Source: Thiobacillus sp.
Lineage (GTDB): Bacteria; Pseudomonadota; Gammaproteobacteria; Burkholderiales; Thiobacillaceae
Assembly: GCA_030680405.1 (NCBI GenBank)
Contig: JAUXVT010000052.1
Location: forward strand, 62,001-126,000
Length of the DNA: 64,000 nt
Reading direction: 5' to 3'
The notes under the pieces are model-generated. The model had not been told where the DNA came from. It saw only the letters and a program-made list of their open reading frames with translations, and did not search any database. Positions within the stretch are counted from its first letter, which is position 1, and each line of letters starts with the position of its first letter. Positions 31,781-53,844 of the stretch are shown one piece after another. A program made the position numbers and the translations under genes.

Positions 31781-31820
31781 GGACGACTCCTTGTTCAATA
31801 GACCGAAAATTTTTGGTTTT

Positions 31821-31854: not shown

Positions 31855-31939
31855 CTGTAAAGGAAACCCTGATGGCTCCTTCTCGCGCGGTGGCGGCAGT
31901 GCGGGTTGCCGCCGCACTACCTTGTCTCACGGCACGGCG

Positions 31940-34156: not shown

Positions 34157-34579
34157 CTATCGGGTACGCGGATCGGTGACGAACCCCAGTTTGCCGAGAC
34201 CTGCTTTCGCGGCGTCGGACATGATCTGCGCGACATGCTTGTAGGCCAGTTCGCCGTCGGCGCGGATGTGGATTTCCGGCTGCGGGGTCTGCTGCGCGGC
34301 GAGATCCATGCGCGCCTGCCAGGCGGCCGCATCGACCGGCTCGGCGTTCCAGTACACCGAACTGTCGGCCTTGATTGAGAGATTGATCGTCTCGGGCTTC
34401 ACCTCGTTCGGCTGGCTCGAAGCTTGCGGCAGGTCGACCTTGACTGCATGCGTCATCAGCGGCGCGGTGATGATGAAGATGACGAGCAGCACCAGCATCA
34501 CGTCGATCAACGGGATCATGTTGATCTCCGCGTTGTCGCCGTCGCCGCTGTCGTTGACGAGTCCGCCGAAGGCCATCAT
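34157..34579 (-). CDS. exbD: biopolymer transport protein ExbD
   Basis: 140 residues with one membrane helix near residues 21-42 containing the proton-carrying Asp (INMIPLIDVMLVLLVIF) and a periplasmic domain ending in MSDAAKAGLGKLGFVTDP. Starts by ATGA overlap with exbB. Works with ExbB and TonB to energise outer membrane receptors. Confidence 0.93.
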   Translation of the reverse strand: MMAFGGLVNDSGDGDNAEINMIPLIDVMLVLLVIFIITAPLMTHAVKVDLPQASSQPNEVKPETINLSIKADSSVYWNAEPVDAAAWQARMDLAAQQTPQPEIHIRADGELAYKHVAQIMSDAAKAGLGKLGFVTDPRTR

Positions 34580-35331
34580 GCGCCCCTTGCCACGGGCGCA
34601 GCGTAGATGCGCGCTTCGTCGTTGTTGACGCGGGTGTTGTTGCGCACCCCGGTCGACATGAAGGCGAACAGGTCATGTGCGAAGCCGTCAACTTCGGACA
34701 GCATGGTGCGCCTGGCGCGGTTGAAGAAGTTGTAAGCCAGCACCGCCGGGATCGCCACCGCCAGCCCAAGCGCGGTCATGATCAGCGCCTCGCCGACCGG
34801 GCCGGCGACCTGATCGAGGCTGCCCGAGCCGCTCATGCCAATGTTAACCAGCGCGTGGTAGATGCCCCACACCGTGCCGAACAGGCCGACGAAGGGCGCG
34901 GAGGATGCGATCGACGCCAGCATGGTGTGGCCGTATTCGAGGCGCGCGGTGTCCTGGTTGATCGCGCGGCGCAGCGCACGGGTGAGGAACTCGTCTTCCG
35001 AGCCCGATTCGATCAGGCGCTGCCCGGTCTTGTTGCGGTACTGCTCGGCGGCCTTGAGCCCGTGGTGGGTCAGGTGCGAGAACGGATCGTTGACCCCGTG
35101 GTTCTGCAGGTAGTCGGCGACCGAGGCCAGACCGAGGGCGTCCCAGAAACGCGTCAGAAAAGCTTGGGCGTGCTTTTTCATGCGCCAGTTGGCGAGGCTC
35201 TTGCTGACGATGAGATACCAGGTGATGACCGACATCGTCAGCAGCACGACGAGCAGGAAATGCGCGAGGCCATCGGCCTGCGCGATAAAGTGGGCGAAGC
35301 CCAGCTGGGTTTGGGTTGCGGCGGTTTCCAT
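34576..35331 (-). CDS. exbB: biopolymer transport protein ExbB (MotA/TolQ/ExbB channel)
   Basis: 251 residues with three membrane helices; the conserved segments SSAPFVGLFGTVWGIYHAL and EALIMTALGLAVAIPAVLAYNFFNR are the ExbB pore helices. Lies 3 nt after tonB. It uses the proton gradient to drive TonB. A second, divergent ExbB-like gene lies at 40234. Confidence 0.93.
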   Translation of the reverse strand: METAATQTQLGFAHFIAQADGLAHFLLVVLLTMSVITWYLIVSKSLANWRMKKHAQAFLTRFWDALGLASVADYLQNHGVNDPFSHLTHHGLKAAEQYRNKTGQRLIESGSEDEFLTRALRRAINQDTARLEYGHTMLASIASSAPFVGLFGTVWGIYHALVNIGMSGSGSLDQVAGPVGEALIMTALGLAVAIPAVLAYNFFNRARRTMLSEVDGFAHDLFAFMSTGVRNNTRVNNDEARIYAAPVARGA

Positions 35332-35334: not shown

Positions 35335-36051
35335 TTAACTCCTGAGGGTGAATTGAATCGGCACGATGACCCACGCGGCCACCGGCCTGCCGCTCTGGCG
35401 GGCGGGCTCGAATTTCCAGCTGGACTGCACCGTTTCCATGGCGGACCGGTCGAGGCGCGGATGGCCGCTGCTTCTCGCCAGTTCCAGCCGCGCTACGCTG
35501 CCGTCCGGGTTGACCAGAATGTTGAGACGCACCGTCCCTTCCTCGCCCAGCCGCCGTGACAGATGGGGATAGGGCGGCTTGGGATTGTTCAGGTAATCCG
35601 CCGGACGCGGCGGCGTGGGTGCCGGGGGAAGCGACGGCGCCGGTTTGGGCGCTTCCGCCACCGGCGCGGGCGGCGGCAACACGTCGGGCACTGGTTCGGG
35701 CACCGGCGTCGGCTCGGGGGGGGCGGCCACGGACTGCGGGATGGGGGCCGGCGTCGGTTTGGCGGCCAATACAGGCGCCGGCAGCGGCTTGGGTTCCGGT
35801 TTGGTTTGCGGCTGGGGTGCTTCGACCTGGGTCTCGATCAGGCTCACCATCAGGGGACGCGGCGGCGTGATCGGCTCGGTCGTGTCGGGCGCGAGCAACA
35901 GCAGGCCAAGCAGCCCGGCGTGCGCGAACGCCACTCCGATGAGCGAGGCAGGCGAAATGCGCGTGTGCTGGAACATCGATGATGCCGGGCGCGGCGGTTC
36001 CATCCTGAGATCAGGTTTCAAGCCGAGCGTTGTGGTAAGCGAAGCGGTCAT
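35335..36051 (-). CDS. tonB: energy transducer TonB
   Basis: About 238 residues if started at 36051; ATGs at 36003 and 35976 are alternatives and no ribosome site is decisive. N-terminal anchor (SLIGVAFAHAGLLGLLLLAP), a Pro-rich rigid rod (about 70-160), and the TonB_C domain with YPHLSRRLGEEGTV and SSWKFEPARQSGRPV. It links ExbBD to the three TonB receptors in the island. A Fur box lies about 140 nt upstream. Confidence 0.92.
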   Translation of the reverse strand: MTASLTTTLGLKPDLRMEPPRPASSMFQHTRISPASLIGVAFAHAGLLGLLLLAPDTTEPITPPRPLMVSLIETQVEAPQPQTKPEPKPLPAPVLAAKPTPAPIPQSVAAPPEPTPVPEPVPDVLPPPAPVAEAPKPAPSLPPAPTPPRPADYLNNPKPPYPHLSRRLGEEGTVRLNILVNPDGSVARLELARSSGHPRLDRSAMETVQSSWKFEPARQSGRPVAAWVIVPIQFTLRS

Positions 36052-36187
36052 CCCAGACGTGTCCAGTTCAAATATCAAACAATGCTGGCTGGGATTCGTA
36101 CCCGCAGGGGTACGAAGTCCATGGCTGGCAGGGTGTCTCAGTCCGCCCAGACGGGCAGTGTCAGGACAAACCAAAAACAATGCGAAT

Positions 36188-37787: not shown

Positions 37788-39857
37788 TTACATATCCATT
37801 TGCAGCGTCAGCAAAGCAGCCCGGCCCGGAGCCGGCATCCGGCCTTGGCTAAAGTCGACGCCGCGGAAGTAGTAATCTCGATCGAACAAGTTGTTGAGCG
37901 CCAGTCCCGCCTTCATTTTTGTGCTGTTCCAGCGGAAATCGCGGGTTACTTGCGCGTTCCATATCGAATAAGACGGGATTTTTCCGATCGATCCGGAAGC
38001 GTTCTCGGCTACCGTATTGGCGCCGTCGCTAAATGAAGCGCTTTGATAAAGGCCGTTCAGGTTCCAGTTCCAGTTTCCGCTACGGTAATTCGTCTGCAGG
38101 TTCAGCTGGTGATGCGACGCCAAAGGCAGTTCATTACCCTGGAATTGACCGGAAAGCTGCTCCGTGTCGACATAGGTGTAAGCCGTTTTAAGCTCGAGCC
38201 CGCGGACGTGCTCCGGTCGCCAGGCAAACTCAGCCTCGACCCCTTGATGGCGGGCTTTGCCGAGATTGCGGAAACCCGCCGTTTGGCTGACGAATTCGAG
38301 CTTGTTGTCGAAATCGAAACGGAAAGCGGTAAGACTGGTATCGATATTCCTGGTCGGGCTTAAGCGGATACCCGCTTCGTAGTTTTTCGCCCGCTCGGCA
38401 GCCAGATCTCCGCCGAAGGTGATTTGCGTGAACTGGACCGGACGCAGTGATTTATGGAAATTGGCGAACAGGAATACAGCGTCGCTTGCCTGGTAGCCGA
38501 TATCCAGACCCGGCAGCCAATCCTTGGTCAGGTTGCGGGTTTGTGCACCGGTCAGGTTGTTGCGGTAGTACAGGTCAACCTGCTCATGGCGGATGCCGGG
38601 GGTGATCTTCAGTTTGTCATCGAGCAGAGCAAAGGTATCGCTCAGGTAAGCGGCGACGGCATCGTTCTCGAAGCGCCAGTTGCGCGAAATGGTGTAGGCA
38701 TTCGTCGCCAGGTTGCGCGCATCGACCAGATAGTCGACCTCTTCACGCATGTAGCGTGCGCCGACCGCAATTTTTTGCTTGATGCCGCCTTCGATGTTGA
38801 AGGTGAATCGCGGTTCGCTGCCGTATACCCAGAAATCGCGCGGCGACGACTGTACAAGAGTTGAGGGGGTGGCGGCGTTGGTGGCGTTGCCGAAGAAAAA
38901 CTGGCGATTGCTGCGATGGGCAAAATTGGTCCAGCTCAATTCCGCCCCATTATCGAAATACTGGTTGTAAGTCAGATGTCCCCGCACCGTGTCTCCGTCG
39001 AACCGATCCAGCGGTCGGGTCGACTGGTCGCGGTCACGCGCATAAGACTGCGGGGTCAACGCGCCGGGTAATTCGTTTTGGGTTTTGTAATACTGCAGTC
39101 CGGCCTTGATATCGGCGTTATCGGTGATGAACCAATCGGCGTCGAGCATCAGGTTGTTCACCGATGTTTTGGAATGGTCGCGTGCCGAATTGCCGTCGAT
39201 GACATTCGCCTGTATCTGTAGGCCGATCTTGTCGCTGACAAAGCCGCCGGCACGCACATAGCTGTCTGTTAGCAACCGGCCATTGTCTGCAACAGACAGT
39301 GTTTCCTTGGCCGTTATGGCGGTCTTTCGCGGGATCCGCTTGGTCACGAAATTGATCACACCGCCGACGTTGTTCGGGCCATAGTGAACGGCGACGCCGC
39401 CTCTTGCCACGTCGATGGCTTCCACGGCATTGATAGTCAATGGAAACAGCGATAGACCGGTCTGGCCGTAAGGCGCCAGCGTGATCGGCATACCGTCAAC
39501 CAACACCAACACTTGCTCGCTACGCAAGGGATTGAGGCCGCGCACGCCGATGTTTGGCAGAATGCCCGTACTGCTTTCGTCCAAAACCCGCACACCCGGC
39601 ACCGTGCGCAACGCATCCTCCACGGTGCGCGCACCGGATTCGGTCAGTTCCTGGTCGGTGATGACCGTCCGTGCTCCGGGGTGTTTCTTCGCCGCTTTCG
39701 GCGTGGGCGAGCCGAGCCAGTCGGCGCTGACCGTTACTTCCTCAAGGGTTTTGCCCGGCGCTTCTTGTTCGGCCTGGTCCGGAGTCTGTGCGTTTGTCTG
39801 TGAAACCGAAAATGCCAGCGAAAGCGCACTTCCCAACAGGGTTAAACGAAACTGCAT
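37788..39857 (-). CDS. TonB-dependent receptor (FecA-like)
   Basis: 689 residues from the ATG at 39857 (MQFRLTLLGSALSLAFS), preceded by GGAGAAA. Plug domain with TVEDALRTVPGVRVLDE and VHYGPNNVGGVINFVTKR, then a barrel; the C-terminus LLTLQMDM does not end in the usual Phe. The substrate is unknown. Located between the DUF2149/ExbB-like pair and the PepSY protein. Confidence 0.88.
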   Translation of the reverse strand: MQFRLTLLGSALSLAFSVSQTNAQTPDQAEQEAPGKTLEEVTVSADWLGSPTPKAAKKHPGARTVITDQELTESGARTVEDALRTVPGVRVLDESSTGILPNIGVRGLNPLRSEQVLVLVDGMPITLAPYGQTGLSLFPLTINAVEAIDVARGGVAVHYGPNNVGGVINFVTKRIPRKTAITAKETLSVADNGRLLTDSYVRAGGFVSDKIGLQIQANVIDGNSARDHSKTSVNNLMLDADWFITDNADIKAGLQYYKTQNELPGALTPQSYARDRDQSTRPLDRFDGDTVRGHLTYNQYFDNGAELSWTNFAHRSNRQFFFGNATNAATPSTLVQSSPRDFWVYGSEPRFTFNIEGGIKQKIAVGARYMREEVDYLVDARNLATNAYTISRNWRFENDAVAAYLSDTFALLDDKLKITPGIRHEQVDLYYRNNLTGAQTRNLTKDWLPGLDIGYQASDAVFLFANFHKSLRPVQFTQITFGGDLAAERAKNYEAGIRLSPTRNIDTSLTAFRFDFDNKLEFVSQTAGFRNLGKARHQGVEAEFAWRPEHVRGLELKTAYTYVDTEQLSGQFQGNELPLASHHQLNLQTNYRSGNWNWNLNGLYQSASFSDGANTVAENASGSIGKIPSYSIWNAQVTRDFRWNSTKMKAGLALNNLFDRDYYFRGVDFSQGRMPAPGRAALLTLQMDM

Positions 39858-39910: not shown

Positions 39911-40237
39911 TTACGGTTTGGGCGCCGACTCTGGCACATAGACCATGGAGCCGTCTTTCAGGCGGTAGGCGATGCCGGCCTTCTCGCCCTCGCCTTGGCC
40001 GATCTGGCCGCTGGACTTGTAGCGGTCGATCTTCTGGCCATCCTTGACGATCATTTCCATGTCCGGCTTGCCGGGGTTTTTGATGACGGTGACGTTGTCG
40101 GCGGTGAACGGGTTCATCGGGTTGTTGGCCACCGCCAGCAATAGCGCGGCGATGATGACCAGGAACACGTCGATGATGTTCACCACCGACAGGATGGGGT
40201 CGTCGGATTCCAGGTCGTCCATCAGGCGCAGGCTCAT
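39911..40237 (-). CDS. DUF2149 protein, ExbD-like partner
   Basis: 108 residues with one N-terminal membrane helix containing an acidic residue (SVVNIIDVFLVIIAALLLAV), like ExbD, and a short periplasmic domain (KDGQKIDRYKSSG, YRLKDGSMVYVPE). It starts by ATGA overlap with the ExbB-like gene. DUF2149 and ExbB-like proteins recur beside CobN-like genes in heme and metal uptake loci; a proton-driven motor for the CobN-like protein is inferred. Confidence 0.8.
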   Translation of the reverse strand: MSLRLMDDLESDDPILSVVNIIDVFLVIIAALLLAVANNPMNPFTADNVTVIKNPGKPDMEMIVKDGQKIDRYKSSGQIGQGEGEKAGIAYRLKDGSMVYVPESAPKP

Positions 40238-40791
40238 TGCGCGCTCCCGGCCGCCAGCGCCGCCACGGGATCGTGGATGGCGGCATCGTGTTCGGCGGCC
40301 TGCACCGGCAGGCGCTTGACGCCATGTTCCACCTTGGCCAGTTCGGTGGCGTACCAGCGGCGGCGCACGTTTACCGTCCAGTAAGTGAGGCTGGCGGCGA
40401 TCAGGGCGATGATGACGGCGGAAAAGGCCACCATGAGATTGGCGCTTACTTCCTGCAACTGTCCATCGGCCAGCCCCTTCAACGCCGGCCCCATCGGGAT
40501 CATGGTCGCCACCAGCCCCAGCATGGGCGCCACGCGGCTCACCAGGCGGGAGGCTTCCAGCCGTTTCACCGCCAACGCCTCCAGGTCGATGGCGTTCAGG
40601 GTCGAATCGGCTCGCGCTGCGGCGAGCAGCTCGAAGCCGCGCGGGTCATTCCGCCGGCGCTGAAGCGCCTGCCAGAAAAAGGCGCCCAGCGCGTAAAAAG
40701 CGTAGAGAAAAACTCCAATCACAGCCAACAGGATGGGGATGAGGAATAACTGGCTGATGCCGTACATACTGCTTTCGATGATGTTGATCAT
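40234..40791 (-). CDS. MotA/TolQ/ExbB-type proton channel protein partnering a CobN-like protein
   Basis: 185 residues from the ATG at 40791 after AAAGGA. Helices IPILLAVIGVFLYAFYALG, VAPMLGLVATMIPMGPAL and LMVAFSAVIIALIAASLTYW are the ExbB-like pore segments. It is clearly different from the canonical exbB at 34576. It lies 10 nt after the CobN-like gene and overlaps the DUF2149 gene, so the three form one unit. Confidence 0.85.
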   Translation of the reverse strand: MINIIESSMYGISQLFLIPILLAVIGVFLYAFYALGAFFWQALQRRRNDPRGFELLAAARADSTLNAIDLEALAVKRLEASRLVSRVAPMLGLVATMIPMGPALKGLADGQLQEVSANLMVAFSAVIIALIAASLTYWTVNVRRRWYATELAKVEHGVKRLPVQAAEHDAAIHDPVAALAAGSAQ

Positions 40792-40801
40792 GAAGAGTCC
40801 T

Positions 40802-43800
40802 TTATTGGTTAAGTGAATAAATGCGTTGCCGCCGCCAGGCACCTAAGGCCATGGCGATAAAAACGAGGCCGACGCCCGACAGGCTGGCGAGTCGGCTTGG
40901 CACTTGGGCGGCGGTCTGTTTCACCATCTGCCGGCCGGTGACGATTGTGGGCTGGGGTGGCGATGGAAGAACCGGCACAGGCTTAGGGGCTGCCTGGGCG
41001 GTTTCGGCCTTAGCCTTGGCTTGGGGCGATGGCGCACTCTGTACCGCGCGCGCCGTGGCGCTTAGTCCATATCCCGCCATCCCCGCCCCCGCCAGCCTGC
41101 TAGCGTATTCGGTGAACTTGCGGTTATCGGTTCTCACGTCGAAGCGTCGCGCCAGTTCCCGGTAGCGTTGCGCCAATGCCTTGAGGCTTTTGGCGTCGGT
41201 CTGCCAGTAACCCTTGCGCGCGGCTTCCAGCATGCGTTCGATCATCTGCGCCTGGGCGTGCGGGTGGTTGCGCTCAAACCAGTTTTTCATGCCGAGCTTG
41301 TATTTGTCGTCGACGTAAACCGCCTTTAATTCATCCCACTGGTCGTTGCGCACTGTTTCGGGCGCTACCGCCTGCCAGCCCCAGAGGTTGTTGACGGCAT
41401 CCAGCATGTTGAGCGCACCGCTGTAGCCCTCCTTCTTCATTGCCTCGATCCAGCCTGGATGGAACTGGCGGGTCTTGAGCTCCTTGGCCAGAAAGCCCGC
41501 CGCCGTTTCGATCTTGGGCGCGCCCGATTCGCGAAGGTTGGAGATGTAAAGCTCGGGGCTTTTGCCAGTGAGGCTGCGCACCGCCAAGCCGATGCCGCCC
41601 AGGTACTGGAAGGGATCATCGGTGGTCAACATGCCGTAAAGGTTGGAGCTGCGCGAAAGCAGCGCGGCCTGCACGCCCTTGAGGTTTTCGGCGTAGAGAT
41701 TCACGCCTTGCGCCGCGCCAGGCGGCAGGCTGCCCCATTCTTTTTCGTCAGGGCCATAAGCGTATTGCATGCGGCTCAAGTAGAGGTCGGCGAGTTTCTT
41801 GTCGCCGGCGGCACGGTCTTCCTTGCCGTTCTTGCCCGTGCCCCAAGTGCCGGAGGCGAGCGTGGCATCGTCCAGCCCGGTACCGTAGCTGCCCGACCGG
41901 TTGGAAAAGATGCGCGTGTCGGCCATCCGCCGGGCCTGACCCGCTTCCACGCCGCGCGCAATGAGGCGCGCTTCGATCTCGCGGCTGTGCGCCGCTACCG
42001 GATTGTCCGGCTCATTCAAAGCTGCGGCCTGCGCCGCCGCTTGCGCCAGCCAGCGCATGACGTTGGGGAAGTGGTCGCGATACAGGCCAGTGGCGGAGAG
42101 CACCACGTCCACGCGCGGGCGCTTGAGTTCAACGGCGGGGATCGCCTCGATGCCGATGACCCGGCCGCCCTCATCCCACTTGGGTTTGAAACCGAGGGCG
42201 GCAAAGGCTTGGGCTTCCAACACGCCGAAGTGGCGCATGGTCTCCACCGACCACAGGCTGAAAGCCAGTTTCTTCGGATATTCGCCATGCTTTTCGCGGT
42301 ATTGGGCGATGAGCTTTTCCGTGCCCTCACGTCCTGCTTCCCAGGCGGCTTGCGTGGGCACACGCGAGGGATCGAAGCCGTAGAGGTTGCGTCCGGTGGG
42401 CAGCGCGTCCGGGTTCTTGACCGGGTCGCCGCCGTAAGAGGTGGGGATGTAGCGGCCTTCCAGTGCTTGGAGGAAGTTCTGCATCTCCCGTGTTTGCGTG
42501 AGATTCAGCCAGTATTCGCGCGCCTTAGCCAACATTTCGCCGACTTTGGCATTGCCCGTGTAAGGCTCGCCCTGCCTCACATGTTTGTCCAGCAGCTTCC
42601 AGGCCGGGGTGTCGCGCAGTTTTTTATAATCGCCGACGATCATTTCCTCCGGGTCGTCCGGTTGCAGCGCGGCAATCAAGGGTTTGCCCAGCATCTGCAT
42701 GACGGTGAACAGACGCAGGTCCGATTCGGCGGGCAACCCGAAGACGGCCAGTCCCAGCGGCTGGTTGGCCAGCGCGAGGTCGTGCAACTGGATGTGCAGG
42801 GCATCGGCGAATTCCCTGAAATTGCCGCGAATGCGCGCCGGTTCCCAGGCCATGTCGCGGTCTATCCTGTTCTCTAGCGTGACGCGGACGATCTCGTCGC
42901 GGGTCTTGTCGCGCACTTCACCCTCTGTCATGTTGAGCCAGGCATGCAGCAGGTCGTGCAGGCGGTTGATCTCGCCGTGCAGGCCGGCGGGCGCAAACGG
43001 CGGCGTGGAATGGGAGATCACCGTGGCGCGCCCACGCCGCTTGGTTTGTAGCGCCTCGCCAATGTCGTCCACGATGTAGGGGTAAATCACCGGCACGTCA
43101 CCCAGGAGCAGGTAAGGCGAGTCGAAAATCGACAGCCCGCGCTCCTTGCCCGGCGTCCATTCCTGGCTGCCGTGGGTGCCGTAATGCACCAGGGCGTGGG
43201 CGCCGTGCACTTCGCGCGCCCACAGGTAGGCGGCAAGGTAAAAGTGGTTCAGCGGCGCGGCAGTGGAATGGTAGATCGCCTTTTCCTTGTCGTCTTTCTT
43301 CTCGCCGCGCGGCGGCTGCGGCAGGATGACGGTGTTGCCCAACTTGAGCCGTGGGATGACGAAATGTGCCTGCCCTTGGTGCTGAACGACCATGGCGGAG
43401 TCTTCCGGTTGGCCAAAGCGCGCAATGATTTTTTCCCGCGTCTCGGCGGGCAAGGTCTCGAACCAGCGCCGGTAGGCGGCAACCGGCATGAGTTCGGCCA
43501 GGCCGTCGCGCAATAAGGGCTCCAACTCGCCATCGCGGTAATACGGCGCTAACAGGCGTTGCAGCAGCAGGGTGAGTTGCGGCGCATCGGGGGTTTCCGT
43601 CGCGTAGCCCGCGCTTTTTATCGCACGCAGCGTGTTTTCCATGCTGCGTGGCAAATTGAGAAAGGATGCGCCGAGGTTCTTTTCCCCCGGCGGATAGTTC
43701 CAGAAGAAAATGGCGGTCTTCTTCTCCGCATTGGGCAAGTGCCTGAGCCGCGACAGATTCATGGCCTTGTTCACCACCGACTGCAACTGGTAGTCGATGG

Positions 43801-44845
43801 CGACAATGTCGCCATCCGATTTGCGTGAATAGGCCGCGATAAGGGGGTCGGTGATGCCGGCATATTCCGGCTGGGCGAGGTAGAAGGGGATGTCCATGTT
43901 TGTCACCCCTGCGGTGTCTTTTTCCCAGTCGGCCTGTTCGCCGCGCCGGTAAGGCATGGCCTGAATGACAGGAATACCTAGCGTCTCGAACTCGCTGTGG
44001 CGCCCCTCGGCGTTGAGCATGATTTGGGTATTGATGAGCACATCGGCAAAGGGCTTGCCCTCGCCCCCAGCTCCTCTCCCCGAGGGAGCGGTGGGTGTAA
44101 GCAGGCGCGTGACGGTGCCGTTGGTCAAGGCTGGCGCGTAGATCGGCAGCGCCAGCGCGCCAGCAGCCTCGATGCGGCGAATGGTGTCGTCGAGAAAACC
44201 GGTGAGTTCAGAGGCAAAATGCGCCTGATGAAAGAGAATGGCGACCACCGGTTGGCCGTTCGTTGGTTTCTTCCAGGCAAGGAATTCGTCCAACGTGGAA
44301 AACACCCGGCCAGCGTAGTCTGGGTGGTAGATCCCGGCATCCGGGAATATCTGCGGTGGCGCACAGGCGCGCGTGGATTGCTTGAACACCTGGGCGTTCA
44401 CCTGGCAGAAAAATTCGGCGAAGTTGGCGCGCCCGCCATTGCTGTAATACGTGTGCAGCGTCTTCATCACCGCAGCGTCCATGCCTTTTGCTTCAGGGCC
44501 GCTGCTTTGCATCCACACCCAGGGCGTCGTGATTTGCGGCAGCAACGGGGCGAGCCCTGCCTTGGCTGCGCCCTGCGCTGCGCCGTAGGGCGCGTCAATG
44601 ACGATGAGGCCAAACCCGGCAAAATCACCGGCCTTTTCCTGGCCGGTGAACTTTTCGATAAAACGCGCTTCGACCTGCACACCTTCCCGCGCAGCGACGT
44701 CCTTCAGGCGGTCGAACTTGCCCGGCTGGGTCGGCGCGGCGGAAAGGAACAGGATGGACGTGGGCGGAGGCGCCGGCTGGGCCAAGGCCACCAGGGGAAG
44801 TGCCGCCAGCAGGATGGCGATGAGACGGTTTTTCATGGAGCGCAT
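40802..44845 (-). CDS. periplasmic CobN-like (HmuS-type) chelatase-family protein
   Basis: About 1347 residues. The start is uncertain (44905, 44896, 44845 or 44836 are in frame); 44845 gives a good signal peptide (NRLIAILLAALPLVALA). CobN/Mg-chelatase H motifs include HYGTHGSQEWTPGKERGL and the large family domain throughout. A Pro/Ala-rich stretch precedes a C-terminal membrane helix (LASLSGVGLVFIAMALGAWR) with basic end, so the body should face the periplasm. Cobaltochelatase partners cobS/cobT are absent; heme-receptor and ExbB-like neighbours point to tetrapyrrole demetallation or uptake as in HmuS. Confidence 0.85.
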   Translation of the reverse strand: MRSMKNRLIAILLAALPLVALAQPAPPPTSILFLSAAPTQPGKFDRLKDVAAREGVQVEARFIEKFTGQEKAGDFAGFGLIVIDAPYGAAQGAAKAGLAPLLPQITTPWVWMQSSGPEAKGMDAAVMKTLHTYYSNGGRANFAEFFCQVNAQVFKQSTRACAPPQIFPDAGIYHPDYAGRVFSTLDEFLAWKKPTNGQPVVAILFHQAHFASELTGFLDDTIRRIEAAGALALPIYAPALTNGTVTRLLTPTAPSGRGAGGEGKPFADVLINTQIMLNAEGRHSEFETLGIPVIQAMPYRRGEQADWEKDTAGVTNMDIPFYLAQPEYAGITDPLIAAYSRKSDGDIVAIDYQLQSVVNKAMNLSRLRHLPNAEKKTAIFFWNYPPGEKNLGASFLNLPRSMENTLRAIKSAGYATETPDAPQLTLLLQRLLAPYYRDGELEPLLRDGLAELMPVAAYRRWFETLPAETREKIIARFGQPEDSAMVVQHQGQAHFVIPRLKLGNTVILPQPPRGEKKDDKEKAIYHSTAAPLNHFYLAAYLWAREVHGAHALVHYGTHGSQEWTPGKERGLSIFDSPYLLLGDVPVIYPYIVDDIGEALQTKRRGRATVISHSTPPFAPAGLHGEINRLHDLLHAWLNMTEGEVRDKTRDEIVRVTLENRIDRDMAWEPARIRGNFREFADALHIQLHDLALANQPLGLAVFGLPAESDLRLFTVMQMLGKPLIAALQPDDPEEMIVGDYKKLRDTPAWKLLDKHVRQGEPYTGNAKVGEMLAKAREYWLNLTQTREMQNFLQALEGRYIPTSYGGDPVKNPDALPTGRNLYGFDPSRVPTQAAWEAGREGTEKLIAQYREKHGEYPKKLAFSLWSVETMRHFGVLEAQAFAALGFKPKWDEGGRVIGIEAIPAVELKRPRVDVVLSATGLYRDHFPNVMRWLAQAAAQAAALNEPDNPVAAHSREIEARLIARGVEAGQARRMADTRIFSNRSGSYGTGLDDATLASGTWGTGKNGKEDRAAGDKKLADLYLSRMQYAYGPDEKEWGSLPPGAAQGVNLYAENLKGVQAALLSRSSNLYGMLTTDDPFQYLGGIGLAVRSLTGKSPELYISNLRESGAPKIETAAGFLAKELKTRQFHPGWIEAMKKEGYSGALNMLDAVNNLWGWQAVAPETVRNDQWDELKAVYVDDKYKLGMKNWFERNHPHAQAQMIERMLEAARKGYWQTDAKSLKALAQRYRELARRFDVRTDNRKFTEYASRLAGAGMAGYGLSATARAVQSAPSPQAKAKAETAQAAPKPVPVLPSPPQPTIVTGRQMVKQTAAQVPSRLASLSGVGLVFIAMALGAWRRQRIYSLNQ

Positions 44846-44907
44846 GACAGCCCGCAGGGTCTTGAACGGCGCCGAGTTGAGCGTGGCGTTTTGCATGGTG
44901 GGCATTC

Positions 44908-47151
44908 TCAGAAGTCTGCCTGCAGGGCGAGGTTGAAGCTGCGTCCCGGCTGGCTGTAGAAGTCCACGCCGACGGGGTTGCGTGCGTCGGCCTGACGGAT
45001 GTCGCTCCACAGCCAGTATTTTTTATCGAGCAAGTTGTTCACGCTGGCGGTGAGGCGCACCGTGCGATTCAACTGCCACCAAGCGGAAACGTCGGCGGTG
45101 GCGTAACCGGAGGGGCGGAACCACGGGGAGTAAGCGGTGCCCTCGTAGTCATTGACGCGATCCTTGCGCGCGGAGGCGCGCAAGCGCGCCTCCGCGCCCC
45201 AGGTTCCGGCGTCGCGAGCCAGCCCCAGGGTGAGCCGGGGCGGCTCGATGCTGTCGAGCGGCTGGTTGCTGGATTGGTCATCGCCCTTGGCATAGGCCAC
45301 GGCGCCATCGAGCCGCCAGCCAGGGGTGAAGTCCCAACTCCCGCGCGCTTCCACGCCGCGGATGTTCACCCGGCTCAGGTTCGTGGCCATGTAGGTGGTG
45401 CCCAGACCGGCGATGCAGCTCGGATGACCCGGACAAGCCAGGCGGACGCTGGCGATGAAGTCCTTGTAGCGGTTGTCGAACACGGCGACCTGCCCACGCA
45501 GCGTGTTGCCCGTGGCGCGCAGTCCCAGTTCGACGCCGACACTGGTCTCGGGCTTGAGATCCGGATTGGGGCTGATGCCGTAGCTTTGCGCGGCGTTGCG
45601 GAAATTGCCGTTGACCTCCTGATAGTTGGGGGCGCGAAATCCACCGGCCACATGGCCCCAAGCGGAGAACGCGGGGGTAAAGCGCCACATCGCCGCGAGC
45701 TTGGGCGAGAAAGCGCCGTTGCTCTGTGCCTCCGCCTGCTTGCCGTTGGCGGTTAGCACCTGCTGGGCCAGCGCGTCCACCTTCGGTTCCAGCTTGCGCC
45801 AGTCGTAGCGCAGCCCCGGTGTCAGGGTGAACTTGCCGTCGAACAGGCCGCCGACTTCGTCCTGCACGAAAAACCCCATCGTGTCGTTCTTGCCGTTGGC
45901 GAAATCACGCAGCGGGAAAGTGTCGCCGGCCAGCGTATTGGACGGTACCTTGGGTGCACCGTTAAGATACACAAAGGCATCGCGCTTCTCTTCCGTTTCC
46001 ACCTGGCTGAGGTCGGCGCCCCAGGTCAGGGCGTGGGTGTATGCGCCGAAATCCATGGCCTTTTCCAACTGGATGCCGCCGCCGGTGGTGGTCTGGGAGA
46101 AAGAGAAATCCTGATTGACCAGGCAATTATTGCCCGATCCAGAAACGGCCGAACAGGTAGAACCGGTGTTGGTGCGCTGCTGGACGTTGTGGTTTTCGGT
46201 ATCGCTGTTCTGGCGATAGAACCTGGCGGTCAGCCGGTCGTAGAAACCGGCTTGTGCTTTATGCTCCCATTCCAGGCTGCCGCGCACGCGGCGGCTGTCG
46301 TCGTTGCCCTGCATCGAGGTGACTTTGGGCAGCGAGCTGGAGAGCCGCCGGACATCGGTTTCGGCGTCCTGTTCGCGGCCTTCCAGCATGGCGGTGAGCT
46401 TGTGGCCGTCGGTAGGCCGGAGGATCAACTTGGCCAGCAGGCCCTTATCCTGAATATCCTGCGGGTTAGGCGCGGTACGGCTGGCGGATATTGTATCGAC
46501 ATTGCCCCGGTTGTCGGTCTCGTTCGCCTTGAGATGGGACAGGCCAATGATCCCTTCCAGCATATCGCCGCGAAAGGCGGCCAGCGCCGTATTGGAAAGC
46601 CCATCGTTGGCGCCGAAATGGCTGAGCCGATAGCCGAATGCGGTCTTTTCATCCCCCTTGAGCAGGTCGCCCGGATCGAGGGTGAGATAGCCCACCACGC
46701 CGCCGATGGCGTCCGACCCGTACAGGCTGGAGGCGGGGCCGCGCAGGATTTCCGCGCGCTTCAGGAAATCCGGCATGACCGGCAGCGGGCCGGACTGGGT
46801 AAAGTTGGTGGGGCCGCCGCCGTTGTAGAAGTCGGGCAGGCGCACGTCGTCCACCATCTGCACCACGCGTACATCCTCCAAGCCGCGAATGTTGACGCGG
46901 GTGGCGCCGAAGCGGCGCAGGTCGCGGGCCACCACCACGTCCGGCTCGTCGCGGAACAGGTCGGCCTCGTCGCGCGGCAAGCGCCGGTCCAGCACCTCGC
47001 GGCCGAGAGTGGTGACGGTAGCCGGCACGGCGTCGATGTCGGCCTCGACGCGCGAGGCCGTGACCGTGACCTCCTTAAGTTGTTTCGTCTCTTGCGCCTG
47101 GGCGGAACACGCCAGGGAAATCATCAGCACAGCCAGCAGTTTCTTGTTCAT
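44908..47151 (-). CDS. TonB-dependent heme/hemoglobin-type receptor
   Basis: 747 residues, signal peptide (LLAVLMISLACSAQA), plug with SLYGSDAIGGVVGYLTLDPG and barrel ending in LALQADF. The heme-receptor signature FRAP (GGFRAPNYQEV) and NPDL (SPNPDLKPE) are both present. No His lies between them, where heme receptors usually have an axial ligand. It is followed immediately by the CobN-like gene. Confidence 0.88.
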   Translation of the reverse strand: MNKKLLAVLMISLACSAQAQETKQLKEVTVTASRVEADIDAVPATVTTLGREVLDRRLPRDEADLFRDEPDVVVARDLRRFGATRVNIRGLEDVRVVQMVDDVRLPDFYNGGGPTNFTQSGPLPVMPDFLKRAEILRGPASSLYGSDAIGGVVGYLTLDPGDLLKGDEKTAFGYRLSHFGANDGLSNTALAAFRGDMLEGIIGLSHLKANETDNRGNVDTISASRTAPNPQDIQDKGLLAKLILRPTDGHKLTAMLEGREQDAETDVRRLSSSLPKVTSMQGNDDSRRVRGSLEWEHKAQAGFYDRLTARFYRQNSDTENHNVQQRTNTGSTCSAVSGSGNNCLVNQDFSFSQTTTGGGIQLEKAMDFGAYTHALTWGADLSQVETEEKRDAFVYLNGAPKVPSNTLAGDTFPLRDFANGKNDTMGFFVQDEVGGLFDGKFTLTPGLRYDWRKLEPKVDALAQQVLTANGKQAEAQSNGAFSPKLAAMWRFTPAFSAWGHVAGGFRAPNYQEVNGNFRNAAQSYGISPNPDLKPETSVGVELGLRATGNTLRGQVAVFDNRYKDFIASVRLACPGHPSCIAGLGTTYMATNLSRVNIRGVEARGSWDFTPGWRLDGAVAYAKGDDQSSNQPLDSIEPPRLTLGLARDAGTWGAEARLRASARKDRVNDYEGTAYSPWFRPSGYATADVSAWWQLNRTVRLTASVNNLLDKKYWLWSDIRQADARNPVGVDFYSQPGRSFNLALQADF

Positions 47152-47217: not shown

Positions 47218-47391
47218 TTATTTGGTGAGGATGAGTTTCTCGTTACGGGTAATGCGCAGGCGGTATTCCTCGCCCTTGTGCACAATGACCACCTCGTTGC
47301 CGCTACGGAACAGTTCGCGGCTGTCTAGGTGCACGGGCGACGGCGATACGGCGGCAATCACCACCAGGTCGGGCTTGAGATCGGCGTTCAT
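47218..47391 (-). CDS. hemP: hemin uptake protein HemP (copy 1)
   Basis: 57 residues from the ATG at 47391 after GGGAGAA. The HemP core is EVVIVHKGEEYRLRITRNEKLILTK read in two parts: VIVHKGEEYRLR and ITRNEKLILTK. HemP/HmuP homologues act in heme uptake and in some bacteria as coactivators of the receptor gene. It sits directly upstream of the heme receptor, and a paralogue is at 53578. Confidence 0.88.
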   Translation of the reverse strand: MNADLKPDLVVIAAVSPSPVHLDSRELFRSGNEVVIVHKGEEYRLRITRNEKLILTK

Positions 47392-47414: not shown

Positions 47415-49388
47415 TCATCGGGTTTCATTCTGTATGCTTGTTTCGGGCTGGCGGCGCGCGTAACCCCAGGCAAAACCGGCAGTCACGGCGGCGAGCAGGA
47501 TGCCTTGCAGCCACAAGGCTTGCTGGTTGGCGTAAATGCCCAAGGCGGGCACCTGGAAGAAATGTACCGGATCCACCGGCAGCCAGCCCGCTTCCTGGAG
47601 CGCGGCGACACCGTGGCCGGCGAACATGACGCCCAGCAGGGCGAGCAACACCGAGCTCGCAGCGAAGAAGGGCCCGATGGGCAAGCGCAGGCCGAAGCGG
47701 AAAATCAGCCAAGCGAGGACGGCGAGGGTGCCTCCGCCCAGCCCGAAGCCGATCAGCACCGAGCCGCGCGCGTCTTCGGCCTGTTGCCAGAGGGCCTGGT
47801 AGAACAGCACGGTCTCGAAGGCTTCACGGTACACGGCCAGGAAAGACACGCCGGTCAGTGCCCACAGGGTACCGCGCGCCAGGGCATGAGTGAGGTGTCG
47901 GCCGACGAAGGCTTTCCAGCGTTCAGCGTGGGACTTGTCGTGCAGCCAGAAGCCGACGTAGAGCAGGATGGCACTGGCGGCGAGTGCCGTGATCCCCTCC
48001 GTGACCTCGCGCCCGGCGCCGCTGATAGCTATGACATAGCTGGCCACGAACCAGGTGAGCGCGCCCAAACCGAGGGCACTCATCCAGCCGATATGGATAT
48101 AGGGCAGCGCCTCGCGGCGCTCGGCCTTGATCAGGAAAGCGACGACGGCCGCCACCACCAGCAGTGCTTCCAGGCCTTCGCGCACGATGATGAAAAACGC
48201 GCTGACCAGTGCGGCGGTGGGGGATAGCCGGCTCCCGTTCAGCTTGTCTGCGGCGCTGGCGAGAAGCGTGTGCACCAAGGCGGCCTGTCTTTCCGCCTTG
48301 GTGATTGGTGCGCCGGCGCGCAGCAGGTTGCGGTAGGCGGTCATCTGCGTTTCGATGTCCTGCCGTAGTGCGCGGTCGGAGGCGTCGAGACTGGCCTCCA
48401 CTAGCTCGAAGCCTTCCAGGTAGCCGGTGATGGCGAGTCGCTGGGCCAAGGAGATGTCACCCGCCCGGTAGGCGGCGAGGCTTTCGTCCAAGTGCCGACC
48501 CGTGAGGGCGAGAGGCGACTCTGCCGCAATTTGGGCCTTGCCGGGGTTTTGCCTGAGCCAGGCGAAAACCATGGATGCGTCTTCGCCATGACTGGATCTG
48601 ACTTCGTTCTCGTTGAGGGTGGCAAGGTCGCGCAAGTTTACGAAGGGAAGGGTTTTGCCGTCGGCGGCAAAAATCGCTGCGCCTTTTTGCGTCACGTCGG
48701 GGGGAGTGGCGAGCGATGCCACATAAAACGCTAGCGCCCAGCGGTCTTCTTCGGAAAGCTGGGTAAAACCGGTCATGGGCGTGCCGGTCACACCCAGGCT
48801 GATGGTGCTGTAAAGGCCGTACACGCTGCGCTGCCCCATGCGCGTTTTGTTGTGGAAATCGGCCGGGGCCGGCTCCATGCCTTTGGCCAGGATGCCATCT
48901 CCTTTGCCTTCCACTCCGTGACAAGAGGCGCACTGGCTGGCGTACAGCCTGGCGGCACCTCTCAGGTTCGGTGCCCGCTTGGGCACGACGGCGATTTTGT
49001 AGGCACCGATAACGCCCCGCCGCAGTTCGCCCGCTAAGCCGGAAACCTCCGCACCGTGTGCTCGGGCATCGATGTATGACTGAAGGGTTTCGGCTTGACG
49101 CAACAGTCCGGCCTTGGCCGGATTGTCCGGCAGCTTTCGCAACTGTTCGATCACCTGGACGGAAAATTCCAACTGCTCCTGGTATTCCGCCTCGTCGAGC
49201 ACCTTGCCATCGCGCACGAATTCCGGGTAATCCACGCCCACATAGTCGAGCATATGGGCGATGGTCTGGGCCGTTCGGGTTGCATCGACGGAAGCGGCCT
49301 GGACGGGGACGGCCAAGACCAAGAGCAGACCGATGAGCGCCCAAACCCCTATTCGGATGATCGGTTGGAACAAGCGTTTTGTGTTCAT
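47415..49388 (-). CDS. cytochrome c-FTR1 fusion iron permease
   Basis: 657 residues from the ATG at 49388 (an in-frame start at 49451 is possible). Signal/anchor segment at 10-32, a helical periplasmic region, a c-type heme site CASCH at 153-157 with candidate axial Met in TPMTGF, a second helical region, then an FTR1 domain with REGLE and REAFE motifs and about seven helices. This is an iron permease with a built-in electron carrier. It precedes hemP1 and the heme receptor on the same strand. Confidence 0.9.
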   Translation of the reverse strand: MNTKRLFQPIIRIGVWALIGLLLVLAVPVQAASVDATRTAQTIAHMLDYVGVDYPEFVRDGKVLDEAEYQEQLEFSVQVIEQLRKLPDNPAKAGLLRQAETLQSYIDARAHGAEVSGLAGELRRGVIGAYKIAVVPKRAPNLRGAARLYASQCASCHGVEGKGDGILAKGMEPAPADFHNKTRMGQRSVYGLYSTISLGVTGTPMTGFTQLSEEDRWALAFYVASLATPPDVTQKGAAIFAADGKTLPFVNLRDLATLNENEVRSSHGEDASMVFAWLRQNPGKAQIAAESPLALTGRHLDESLAAYRAGDISLAQRLAITGYLEGFELVEASLDASDRALRQDIETQMTAYRNLLRAGAPITKAERQAALVHTLLASAADKLNGSRLSPTAALVSAFFIIVREGLEALLVVAAVVAFLIKAERREALPYIHIGWMSALGLGALTWFVASYVIAISGAGREVTEGITALAASAILLYVGFWLHDKSHAERWKAFVGRHLTHALARGTLWALTGVSFLAVYREAFETVLFYQALWQQAEDARGSVLIGFGLGGGTLAVLAWLIFRFGLRLPIGPFFAASSVLLALLGVMFAGHGVAALQEAGWLPVDPVHFFQVPALGIYANQQALWLQGILLAAVTAGFAWGYARRQPETSIQNETR

Positions 49389-49460
49389 GATGGCGAGCTC
49401 ACGGTTATCGGTTCGGGAATGGAAGCCGATGGGAAAATTAAGTGATTGCATGTAATTTTC

Positions 49461-51007: not shown

Positions 51008-51328
51008 TCACGCGGCGCGCTTGCCCACGCGGAGCGCGAATTCTTCCTCGCGATGACGGTCTGGATCGGCGCGGAAAAGTCGTCGCGCGACAGCCCCATG
51101 CCGTTCAGCATCCACAAGTCGACCCAGGTGCGGACGAAACGCTCGAAGCTGGCCTGGCTGTCCCATGCCAGCAGCAGGGTGAGCGTCGTGGCGGCCGCGC
51201 GGCTCGTTGAACTGGTGCGACGCCAGCCCCAAGGCATGTTGCAGGGAGTCGCGCGCTGCGTGATAAGCGTGGCGGAAGTGGTCATGTTGGCGCGGCAGCA
51301 CATGGAAGTGGTAGGCGATTGCAAGCAT
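51008..51328 (-). pseudogene. antibiotic biosynthesis monooxygenase-like protein with two compensating frameshifts
   Basis: The start ATG at 51326-51328 overlaps the HemS stop. The first frame reads MLAIAYHFHVLPRQHDHF to ASHQFNEP, then the frame moves and reads TLTLLLAWDSQASFERFVRT to SAPIQTV, and the original frame resumes with EEFALRVGKRAA-stop at 51008. Together they make one ABM-fold protein of about 105 residues. One apparent base gain near 51190 and one loss near 51060 explain the pattern. Family members include heme-handling monooxygenases. Confidence 0.7.
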
Positions 51329-52395
51329 CAGCGCGGCTCCAGGCTTTCTGCCAGCATGCGCCAGCCGGTGGTTTCGGGCAGGCCGGGCTTGCGCTGGCCG
51401 AAGAAGTAGGCGATGAATTCGCCCGCCGCATCGAACAGTTCGACCGAGGTGACGATGCCGTCGGCGGTGGGTTTTTTCACCAGCCAGGCCTGCGCCACGC
51501 GGTCTTCGCGCAGATGCAGGCTGAAGCCGTGGTCGAGCACGTTGAGCCAGTTGCCCATGCGATGGATGTTTTTGACCGGGCCGGTGTGAATCTGGATGCA
51601 GCCGGGGCTGCCGACGTACACCATGATTTCCTGCCTGGTGGTGGCAGCGGATTGCAGCAGGCGTGCGGGCGTATTGGTCAGAAGCGGGGTGGCAAATTCG
51701 TTGCCGATCAGGCGGAACGCCTGGGTGCGGCTGATCTTGTGCCGTTTCAGCAGGCCGAAAAATTGGTTGGTATCGGCCATCGACTGCCAGTCGGTGCGCA
51801 GCGCCTTGATGTCGATGCCGTCGTCCGCGCGTTCCGGCGTGCGACCCGCCGGGCGCGGCAGCACGGTTTCGCCCGGTATCTGGATGGGCGCCGCCCAGGC
51901 GTCGCGCAGCGCTTCGAAGGTGAGCAAATCGGCGCCGTCGCGCAGATAGATTTTGTGCACGGCGTCGCCGCAGGCGTCGAAAAATTGGAAGGAGCGGCGC
52001 GTGTCCTGCCCGATCCGTTCCTCGACGGCGTAGCCGAATGCCCATTTGTCGTAAAACAGCCGCAGGTCGATGGCATCGCCCAGCACCAGGCCGACCTGGT
52101 CGCCGTGGTTGATGTTCTGGTAAGCGCCCTCTTTGTCATGAACGGCGGCTTCGTTGCGCGTCAAGGCCGTCACCGAGCCGAGTTCGCCGATGCGCAGCAT
52201 CAGGCCGCGCAGATCGCCGGCCAGGCGGGTGACGTGCTCGCCGACGCCGGTGGCGAGCAATTCGGCTTCGGATACGCCCAGCGTGTGCGCGGCGTCGCGG
52301 ATGCGCAGGCGCTTTTCGGCGGTGAGCGCATGCCAAGCGTCGCGCAGGGATTTGGGGGTAAAGGAGGAAAAGGCGGCGGGGAAGACGGCGCTCAT
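51328..52395 (-). CDS. hemS: HemS/ChuS-type heme-degrading or heme-trafficking protein
   Basis: 355 residues, two repeated HemS halves. Blocks GEHVTRLAGDLRGLMLRIGE, AYQNINHGDQVGLVLG, FFDACGDAVHKIYLR and HRMGNWLNVLDHGFSLHLRE match the family. It is cytoplasmic and would bind or degrade heme after import. The stop overlaps the ABM-like gene and the start overlaps the preceding small gene by 4 nt each. Confidence 0.9.
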   Translation of the reverse strand: MSAVFPAAFSSFTPKSLRDAWHALTAEKRLRIRDAAHTLGVSEAELLATGVGEHVTRLAGDLRGLMLRIGELGSVTALTRNEAAVHDKEGAYQNINHGDQVGLVLGDAIDLRLFYDKWAFGYAVEERIGQDTRRSFQFFDACGDAVHKIYLRDGADLLTFEALRDAWAAPIQIPGETVLPRPAGRTPERADDGIDIKALRTDWQSMADTNQFFGLLKRHKISRTQAFRLIGNEFATPLLTNTPARLLQSAATTRQEIMVYVGSPGCIQIHTGPVKNIHRMGNWLNVLDHGFSLHLREDRVAQAWLVKKPTADGIVTSVELFDAAGEFIAYFFGQRKPGLPETTGWRMLAESLEPR

Positions 52396-52700
52396 GCGGA
52401 AACGCCTTTCAGGCCGGGTGATGACAAACCTGCAATCAAGTTCAGGCGGCGGTGCTCGGCGCCCCAGTCGGTGACCAGGCGCTGGGTGAGCCAGTGCGCG
52501 CGTAACGCGTCGGGTTCGGGGCGTTCGATGTCCATGTCGTCGGCGAGGCTGCGGCAGGCTTCGCGCTCGGCCGGGGTGAGTTCGGCGTGTTCGGCCGCGT
52601 GTTCGAGCAGCAGCCGGGCGGTCGCCTGGTTGCGTGAACAGGGGTGGCGCAGCAACACCAGCGCGGCAACCAGGAGCGATGCGGGATGGGCGGTATGCAT
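52392..52700 (-). CDS. small unknown protein of the heme operon
   Basis: 102 residues from the ATG at 52700, after GAGGAGAAA. N-terminal hydrophobic segment (PASLLVAALVLL), then a helical stretch rich in Glu, Ala and Arg (AAEHAELTPAEREACRSLAD) and WGAEHRRLNLIAG. I do not recognise a family. It is coupled to hemS by ATGA overlap and so is likely part of heme use. Confidence 0.7.
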   Translation of the reverse strand: MHTAHPASLLVAALVLLRHPCSRNQATARLLLEHAAEHAELTPAEREACRSLADDMDIERPEPDALRAHWLTQRLVTDWGAEHRRLNLIAGLSSPGLKGVSA

Positions 52701-52711
52701 GGGGTTTCTCC

Positions 52712-53248
52712 TCAAGCGGCGGCGACAAAGGCTTCGCCGGGTTGCCATTCGCAGGCGGTGAGCTCGCCGGCGGTGAGCTCGCCGCTTTGCAGTGCGTGCA
52801 ACAGGCGCAGCGTTTCGCGCGCCGAGCGGCCCACGTTGAGATCGTTCGCCGCCACGCTCATGACCCGGCCTTCGGGGTTGACGATGAAAGTGGCGCGCAC
52901 GGCTACGCCGGATTCGGCGAGCACGTCAAAGCCTTGCGCCAGCGCGCGCGACACGTCGCCCAGCATCGGGAACTTGACCGCGCCGAGGCCATGTTTGACC
53001 CAGGTGCGGTGGGCGTGCGCCGAATCGACGCTGGCGCCTAACAGCACCGCGCCCGAGACGTCGAAGTCGTGGACGAGGTCGGAATAGGCGCGGATTTCCG
53101 TCGGACAAACGAAGGTGAAGTCGAGCGGCCAGAAAAACAGCACCAGCCACTTGCCGCGATAGTGCGCGAGCGAGACCGGTTCGATGCGGCCATCGGGTAG
53201 ATAGGCTTCGCAGGTAACGTCGGGGATGGGGTGTCCAATTGAAATCAT
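52712..53248 (-). CDS. 2-Cys peroxiredoxin (AhpC/Prx1-like)
   Basis: 178 residues. Peroxidatic Cys48 in DFTFVCPTEI and candidate resolving Cys166 in LTACEWQPGE. It would remove peroxide generated during heme or iron import. The C-terminus contains a tandem GELTAGELTA coded by a duplicated 15-bp unit (52757-52786). It sits in the heme operon between two small unknown genes. Confidence 0.9.
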   Translation of the reverse strand: MISIGHPIPDVTCEAYLPDGRIEPVSLAHYRGKWLVLFFWPLDFTFVCPTEIRAYSDLVHDFDVSGAVLLGASVDSAHAHRTWVKHGLGAVKFPMLGDVSRALAQGFDVLAESGVAVRATFIVNPEGRVMSVAANDLNVGRSARETLRLLHALQSGELTAGELTACEWQPGEAFVAAA

Positions 53249-53508: not shown

Positions 53509-53528
53509 GCCAGTCTCCTTGGGGTTGA

Positions 53529-53796: not shown

Positions 53797-53825
53797 TCAT
53801 GTTGTTGTGTGTTCGTTTTGCGAAT

Positions 53826-53844
53826 AATAACGATTCTCATTTAT
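53826..53844 (-). promoter_or_regulatory. Fur box upstream of hemP2 and the heme operon
   Basis: Minus strand ATAAATGAGAATCGTTATT matches 13 of 19 positions of the Fur consensus, in an AT-rich stretch unlike the surroundings, 30-48 nt before hemP2. Confidence 0.65.

Follow-up and report, generated by a model that had tools for sequence, protein, structure and literature searches.

A Fur-associated gene cluster of Thiobacillus sp. that probably removes iron from heme outside the inner compartment and seems to carry its own membrane motor

Could a metal chelatase draw its power from an ion-driven stator? This testable question is raised by a gene cluster on the minus strand of a 64,000-nucleotide stretch of Thiobacillus sp. 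DNA (assembly GCA_030680405.1, contig JAUXVT010000052.1), referred to here as the window. Its core consists of a TonB-dependent heme/hemoglobin receptor (44908-47151; TIGR01785, 386 bits against a cut-off of 317, and TIGR01786, 410 against 324), an exported CobN-like class I chelatase of the BtuS/HmuS kind (40802-44845; PF02514, CobN-Mg_chel, 1031 bits), a HmuU-like, ExbB-like proton-channel subunit of the MotA/TolQ/ExbB family (40234-40791; PF01618, 29.6 bits, cut-off 22.9) and a HmuV-like DUF2149 protein (39911-40237; PF09919, 103.8 bits, cut-off 27.1). A first-pass annotation, made from the sequence alone, had placed these four genes at 39911-47151, and Pfam and NCBIfam recover all of them there. 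The ExbB-like start is located 10 nucleotides downstream of the CobN-like stop, and an ATGA overlap joins the ExbB-like stop with the DUF2149 start. We read the cluster as a Fur-controlled heme-iron acquisition operon at whose core a class I chelatase, exported and anchored in the inner membrane, would run in reverse, and we give this reading a probability of about one half. The parts of the cluster and their heme context are well supported.

By kinship, the CobN-like protein is not a cobaltochelatase; the first-pass annotation had argued from its signal peptide and anchor that it cannot be the cytoplasmic subunit. In a tree of 61 proteins (from 97 rows), all 51 DUF2149-linked CobN-like proteins stand apart from eight CobN and two BchH references with a Shimodaira-Hasegawa-like approximate likelihood ratio (SH-aLRT) support of 100, and three Bacteroidota HmuS proteins fall among the 51, showing kinship with HmuS. 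In a second tree of 71 proteins (from 117 rows), the separation holds for 61 of 61 linked proteins (SH-aLRT 99). Both trees are of the quick kind, with SH-aLRT as the sole support measure; HmuS and several plasmid rows sit on long branches, and Bacteroides fragilis BtuS1 and BtuS2 themselves are absent. Loci with split or short CobN-like frames (L035, L058, L067, L074, L080, L086 and L098) are excluded from the trees and from the residue counts, L017 (a long branch with the catalytic motif lost) is present in the first tree and excluded from the second, and two pairs of loci (L014/L041 and L016/L099) seemingly represent the same genomes twice. The genome to which the window belongs, which is 87% complete, holds one PF02514 gene, namely the CobN-like gene itself, and no CobT (PF06213; CobS was not searched for), which goes further than the earlier statement that no cobT is near.

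The export and C-terminal anchoring claimed for the CobN-like protein are borne out by hydropathy, on which, rather than on a dedicated topology predictor, our assignment is based. The putative export signal reaches a Kyte-Doolittle value of 2.91 over 13 residues ('MRSMKNRLIAILLAALPLVALAQ'), and the C-terminal hydrophobic segment reaches 2.08 over 17 residues. N-terminal hydropathy alone does not separate the groups, as two of the eight CobN references attain 1.96 and 2.13. The C-terminal segment is absent from all eight CobN and both BchH references and present throughout the module groups of the 71 rows (lowest value 1.17, in L037); over the 97 rows the score is 1.16 in L037 and low in L063 and L050, where frames or contigs are cut short. 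We also mapped the published HmuS residues (PMC12583661) through the Bacteroides finegoldii HmuS row. His538 and Glu577 are kept in the window protein and likewise in all 10 CobN/BchH references. The HFG(T/A)HG motif of HmuS, which includes the catalytic His538 (codon 43172-43174), reads HYGTHG in the window and is a superfamily feature. Ser1014, Arg1197, Ser1199 and Asn1200 are common to the window protein and HmuS and occur in none of the eight CobN rows, Ser1199 being present also in both BchH rows.

The surroundings of the core point to heme and to Fur. In the upper part of the run, the minus-strand order is hemP (53578-53796; PF10636, 60.3 bits), which is probably the first gene, a small open reading frame (53266-53520) with no Pfam match, AhpC, a HemS/ChuX heme-handling protein (51328-52728, start uncertain; PF05171, 262 bits), DUF2325 and a cytochrome c-FTR1 iron permease (47415-49451; PF03239, 92 bits, and PF00034, 53.9 bits). 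The lower part continues with another hemP directly upstream of the heme receptor (47218-47391; PF10636, 69.7 bits, cut-off 25), the receptor, the CobN-like, ExbB-like and DUF2149 genes, and a FecA/siderophore-type TonB receptor (37788-39857, start inferred; TIGR01783, 287.6 bits, cut-off 223.5). The two hemP genes and hemS lie outside the coordinates given by the first-pass annotation. HemP has been named as a regulator of hemin acquisition (PMC11002078). The stretch from hemP to the receptors would form one operon. A Fur-like site with 13 of 19 consensus positions is found upstream of the leading hemP (53820-53838, minus strand). In a scan of the whole window, a single site scores 14/19 (at 36188, ahead of tonB) and four score 13/19; of these four, the one at 40777 falls inside the exbB-like gene, so chance sites do exist. 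The FRAP...NPDL motifs noted earlier are present in the heme receptor. As to the fate of released iron, cytochrome c-FTR1 is a candidate inner-membrane importer; the genome has two FecCD matches, one of them partial, and within its 87% completeness no FeoB_C.

The two small proteins form the putative motor, which, as had been stated, is distinct from the canonical system: separate genes for TonB (35335-36180; PF03544), ExbB (34576-35331; PF01618) and ExbD (34157-34579; PF02472) are present on the minus strand. The ExbB-like protein aligns with canonical ExbB at an hhalign probability of 89%. DUF2149 may consist of one transmembrane helix and a small periplasmic domain and could be an ExbD-like stator partner, a tentative assignment that comes from sequence and from a low-confidence AlphaFold2 (AF2) model (pLDDT 58) with a transmembrane helix at residues 14-38 and low confidence elsewhere. 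An acidic residue of this helix is Asp in 12 of 13 rows and Glu in Runella; in the window it is Asp23 (codon 40169-40171), which aligns weakly with Asp26 of ExbD (hhalign probability 31.5%, E 5e-4). Comparing the DUF2149 profile with the PDB produced no match of relevance.

The linkage of the DUF2149, ExbB-like and CobN-like genes is nearly constant. Within the phylum, 11 of 299 sampled genomes contain DUF2149, including the one studied here, and the 10 other loci all have CobN-like and ExbB-like genes within about 2 kb. A scan of genome contigs revealed 465 relatives, and among the best 80 of them (the scan loci) an ExbB-like gene is found in 80 and a CobN-like gene in 74; the latter is on the same strand in 73 of the 74 and within 300 nucleotides of the pair in 61. 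In Pseudomonadaceae, DUF2149 is present in 46 of 198 genomes, and each of the 20 places fetched out of the 50 listed has both partners. Twelve plasmid records match DUF2149 (one at E 2), and nine of the ten fetched have a CobN-like gene. A third cassette type, represented by nine loci, also has all three genes. Seven of these loci (L165-L171), from Pseudomonadaceae, carry a CobN-like gene with an HSTYEF motif, an ExbB-like gene and a weak DUF2149 among unrelated genes.

If our reading is correct, heme would cross the outer membrane via the receptor, powered by the separate TonB/ExbB/ExbD. In the periplasm, the central cleft of the CobN-like protein would take up the heme, iron would be set free and the porphyrin left behind. 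The ExbB-like/DUF2149 pair would be an ion-driven stator of the MotA/ExbB type, anchored beside the CobN-like protein and providing the conformational work that ATP-driven CobST or ChlID provides for the cytoplasmic relatives. The released iron might then enter through cytochrome c-FTR1, with HemS handling such heme as reaches the cytoplasm. In other words, our proposal is that the chelatase itself, and not the receptor, is what the pair drives, in place of an AAA+ motor; both this coupling and the direction of the reaction are what we infer from gene content and context. We found no publication proposing an ion-driven chelatase in the open-access literature, which is not proof of absence. The observations that weigh against our proposal concern the motor, the cargo and the name of the enzyme, and they are considered below together with the alternatives.

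The published view of such pairs is that they serve the receptor: HmuU and HmuV are credited with powering the outer-membrane receptor (PMC10100974, PMC12583661), and PA1924 of Pseudomonas aeruginosa is read as a TonB-system energiser of the receptor (PMC4542158). Transferred to the window, this would leave the chelatase and its heme cargo as they are, make the pair an auxiliary energiser of the neighbouring receptor and spare the chelatase any motor. We consider this unlikely, even if it survives best among the alternatives. It agrees with the 59 loci in which a same-strand receptor lies within 700 nucleotides of the CobN-like gene, and with L091, where another TonB receptor sits between the CobN-like gene and the pair. 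Against our own reading stand the weak link between DUF2149 and ExbD and the distance of 0.7-2.9 kb between the CobN-like gene and the pair in 13 of the 74 loci. Moreover, six of the 80 scan loci have DUF2149 and no CobN-like gene (L038, on a 3-kb contig, L045, L066, L096, L097 and L101), as does the Paracoccus alcaliphilus plasmid locus L113 within the 13.5 kb fetched. In the Cupriavidus/Ralstonia loci L066, L096, L097 and L101, a protein of about 1,100 amino acids is encoded upstream instead; in L096, the only one checked with Pfam, it is an AcrB-type resistance-nodulation-division (RND) pump, and in these loci the motor may serve another envelope machine. What counts against the receptor as the target is that no TonB-like partner is seen in the module, while we favour coupling to the chelatase because the CobN-like gene is the near-constant companion of the pair, because separate ExbB and ExbD occur in 11 of 80 flanks and in the window, because the third cassette type is mostly without a receptor, and because DUF2149 occurs in methanogens. 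In the third type, no TonB receptor is found by similarity in eight of nine loci (L021 and L165-L171), nor by Pfam among nine neighbours of two such loci; in the remaining one, L022, a receptor is 1.3 kb away. Archaea have no Gram-negative outer membrane. Methanosarcina acetivorans matches both PF02514 and PF09919. A link of methanogen DUF2149 with TolQ is on record (PMC9425974), a published table includes HmuV-like proteins of Methanomicrobia (PMC10100974), and two BtuS are given for M. barkeri (PMC10846266).

Two of the loci just mentioned deserve a separate remark. In L096 (4653-9237 and 10001-10312), an HlyD-type adaptor and the AcrB-type pump are followed by ExbB-like and DUF2149 genes, and L066, L097 and L101 likely share this arrangement. 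In L113, the DUF2149 reading frame (4280-4564) carries no annotation.

The cargo may be questioned as well. The enzyme could act on another iron chelate, such as a siderophore or a modified tetrapyrrole, or insert metal into scavenged porphyrin, heme being the cargo of its neighbours only; we regard this as somewhat less probable still. Here, the HmuS likeness stressed by the first-pass annotation holds in kinship and in the shared residues and fails at the heme ligands. At site 1, Met79 is replaced by Pro and His254 by Ile (the three Bacteroidota control rows show Met in two and His in three). The LSLDHxxEFMGG site of HmuS reads LTTDDPFQYLGG in the window, with His1209 replaced by Asp (codon 41615-41617) and Glu1212 by Gln, and the second axial position is thus the same as in eight of eight CobN rows. 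The methionine-rich insert of HmuS domain IV is missing, the segment having 62 residues with two Met in the window and 108-297 residues with 7-31 Met in three HmuS rows. By these published defining residues the window protein is not HmuS, and since it has neither Met79, His254, His1209 and Glu1212 nor the insert, it represents a sister kind that is closer to BtuS, which has been described as the third CobN type (PMC6460266). The fold is unable to separate the two families: the AF2 model (1192 residues, pLDDT 87.4) has Foldseek matches to CobN (7c6o) and HmuS (9d26), with M. tuberculosis CobN slightly ahead (5e-74 versus 1.4e-71). A His between FRAP and NPDL is a feature of heme receptors known from work on HemR. 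The window receptor has none, and such a His is seen in 2 of the 12 related heme-type loci that show the pattern. Furthermore, the region immediately upstream of the heme receptor shows no significant Fur site (10/19), the presence of HemS among these genes implies entry of some intact heme, and the FecA-type receptor follows DUF2149. Sister-clade modules often have CirA-like receptors, below the heme cut-offs in nine of ten scanned, and among 25 loci with heme-type receptors a hemP pattern occurs anywhere in five and directly upstream in one. Protoporphyrin release persisted in a B. fragilis mutant without btuS1 and btuS2 (PMC6460266), a warning that the enzyme should not be taken for a simple one. 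On the other hand, the window receptor, hemP and hemS are of the heme type, the propionate site of HmuS is represented by Ser1014 and Ser1199, and the hemP pattern accompanies the CirA-type pseudomonad modules too. A cobaltochelatase relocated for corrinoid salvage is very improbable, the NCBIfam equivalog name 'cobaltochelatase subunit CobN' (NF004644, 1457 bits, cut-off 1248), a Trichlorobacter lovleyi module near bzaF whose receptor best matches B12 receptor models (below cut-off) and a cobalamin riboswitch reported for a B. fragilis hmu-like operon (PMC10100974) being opposed by the clade apart from CobN, the heme genes around, the lack of CobT in the 87%-complete genome and an Rfam scan of the window that gave tRNAs only and no cobalamin riboswitch, for which reason we rejected a B12 reading of the module.

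To see how far the heme assignment extends, it is useful to consider regulation in relatives. Fur-like sites (at least 12/19, reached by no more than 5% of mononucleotide shuffles) are found upstream in 30 of the 59 receptor-adjacent loci, and Zur-like sites, by a like rule, in three. On the second tree, labels were assigned by us at approximately 12 or more matches and no more than 5% of shuffles; L100 passes both rules and is labelled Fur, L159 (Zur 12/16, 5%) is unlabelled, and L158 (8%) and L083 (Fur 13/19, 11.5%) fail. Six Zur-labelled rows fall in one clade and 20 Fur-labelled rows outside it, which amounts to one label change between Fur and Zur, or two for Fur against all groups. The two module copies of one genome (G474) differ in this respect, a 14/19 Fur site belonging to one of them and a 14/16 Zur site to the other. 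The Zur clade also includes Azospirillum brasilense, with the module near nikR, and an unlabelled row from Nitrosomonas europaea. This Zur/Ni clade has His1209 and Glu1212 in 13 of 13 rows and His254 in 10, compared with Asp1209 in 37 and Ile254 in 29 of the 37 other proteobacterial rows. On a Runella slithyformis plasmid, the cassette is embedded in an hypABF...CDE nickel-hydrogenase maturation cluster (L108:656-14914), together with a membrane protein whose likeness to NicO and DsbD stays below cut-off. The Runella and T. lovleyi CobN-like proteins branch deeper, on long branches, and both have Asp at 1209; since their settings are nickel and corrinoid, respectively, the second axial residue follows clade and not simply metal.

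The distribution of hemP, which outside the window was detected by a motif pattern (only the two window genes being Pfam-checked), is in line with this division. Among the 80 scan loci, three of which have too little flank, 13 show the pattern after DUF2149; so do 9 of the 11 nearest rows of the window in the second tree (not L023 and L070). The loci with the pattern include pseudomonads whose CirA-like receptor is below the heme cut-offs. None of 17 Zur/Ni-clade loci shows it (the tree assigns 13 of them to the clade, and likeness to L054 the other four), nor does any of 10 CobN/BchH reference loci. We read the cargo in the clade of the window as heme or heme-iron; for other Fur-type modules this is less certain. 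Judging from these sequences, the cassette has regulon-specific clades, which is new here. According to a published survey, operons for other ligands do without HmuV (PMC10100974); the Zur/Ni, hyp and bzaF contexts speak against this. It is tempting to speculate, although we hold it to be somewhat doubtful, that CobN-like, ExbB-like and DUF2149 proteins make up a general extracytoplasmic metal-stripping engine, in which an ion gradient, not an AAA+ ATPase, would reverse a class I chelatase. Its clades, in Bacteria and methanogenic Archaea, would be devoted to iron/heme where Fur and hemP are found, to zinc and nickel where Zur, nikR or hyp genes are found, and perhaps to cobalt, and whether the second axial residue is Asp or His would depend on the clade.

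The first-pass annotation regarded such a machine as largely uncharacterised. This has to be corrected, as exported CobN-like BtuS and HmuS and a matching layout in P. aeruginosa have already been published. NADH-dependent de-chelation of heme belongs to the published definition of HmuS, and the activity has been reported for B. thetaiotaomicron (PMC12583661). The Bacteroidota hmuYRSTUV system (PMC12583661, PMC13227078, PMC10100974) is described as having an exported, membrane-anchored CobN fold, a TonB receptor, HmuU and HmuV in one operon, as in the window, where His538, Glu577, Ser1014, Arg1197 and Ser1199 of HmuS are retained. The suggested hmuR-S-T-U-V layout is matched in its R, S, U and V counterparts, whereas the place of hmuT, between the CobN-like and ExbB-like genes, is not occupied by any gene. 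Also unlike hmuYRSTUV, the window has hemP and hemS, and HmuY did not turn up among the genes scanned, the remainder of the genome having been searched for neither HmuT nor HmuY. A survey counted 140 species with operons that have R, S, U and V and lack Y and T (PMC10100974). PA1922-PA1925 of P. aeruginosa has the receptor, the CobN-like protein, a proton-channel-family protein and DUF2149 in the same order (PMC4542158, PMC9431628, PMC8456098), but it is Zur-regulated and has been read as a cobaltochelatase with a TonB energiser (PMC4542158, PMC9431628). PA1924, printed there as ExbD, is in our view the partner of the ExbB-like kind. In genomes other than that of P. aeruginosa, Zur-box loci belong to another CobN-like clade, with His at 1209. 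B. fragilis BtuS1 and BtuS2 (PMC6460266) are likewise exported, of the third CobN type and tied to heme iron; they differ in coming from Bacteroidota, and the consulted parts of that paper describe no motor role. The class I chelatases CobNST and ChlHDI share the fold and the catalytic HxGxHG loop with the window protein, whereas the ten CobN/BchH references have no C-terminal anchor and belong to another clade. CobNST and ChlHDI are cytoplasmic and AAA+ driven.

Elsewhere in the window, a second iron locus (27083-31930) comprises an FTR1 permease, a Fer4_5 protein, an OprB-like porin and an Fe2+ transport protein (PF10634), and another TonB receptor (31940-34048) adjoins it. A MoxR-type AAA+ gene is located with a VWA-like DUF2201 gene beside hsp33 on the plus strand (60181-62486); as a stand-in for CobS/CobT this pair was rejected, being of other families, on the opposite strand and some 15 kb away.

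Before the 2025 work on Bacteroidota, according to its authors, there was no direct demonstration of biological de-chelation (PMC12583661). If our reading is true, de-chelation would extend to widespread Proteobacteria, whose genes still carry the cobaltochelatase name. DUF2149 would gain a function, and the finding would bear on the unexplained Zur-regulated PA1922-PA1925 operon. The Thiobacillus cluster probably takes up heme and removes its iron outside the inner compartment, and seems to have a membrane motor of its own for the task, while zinc, nickel or cobalt, instead of heme, appears to be the cargo of related clusters.

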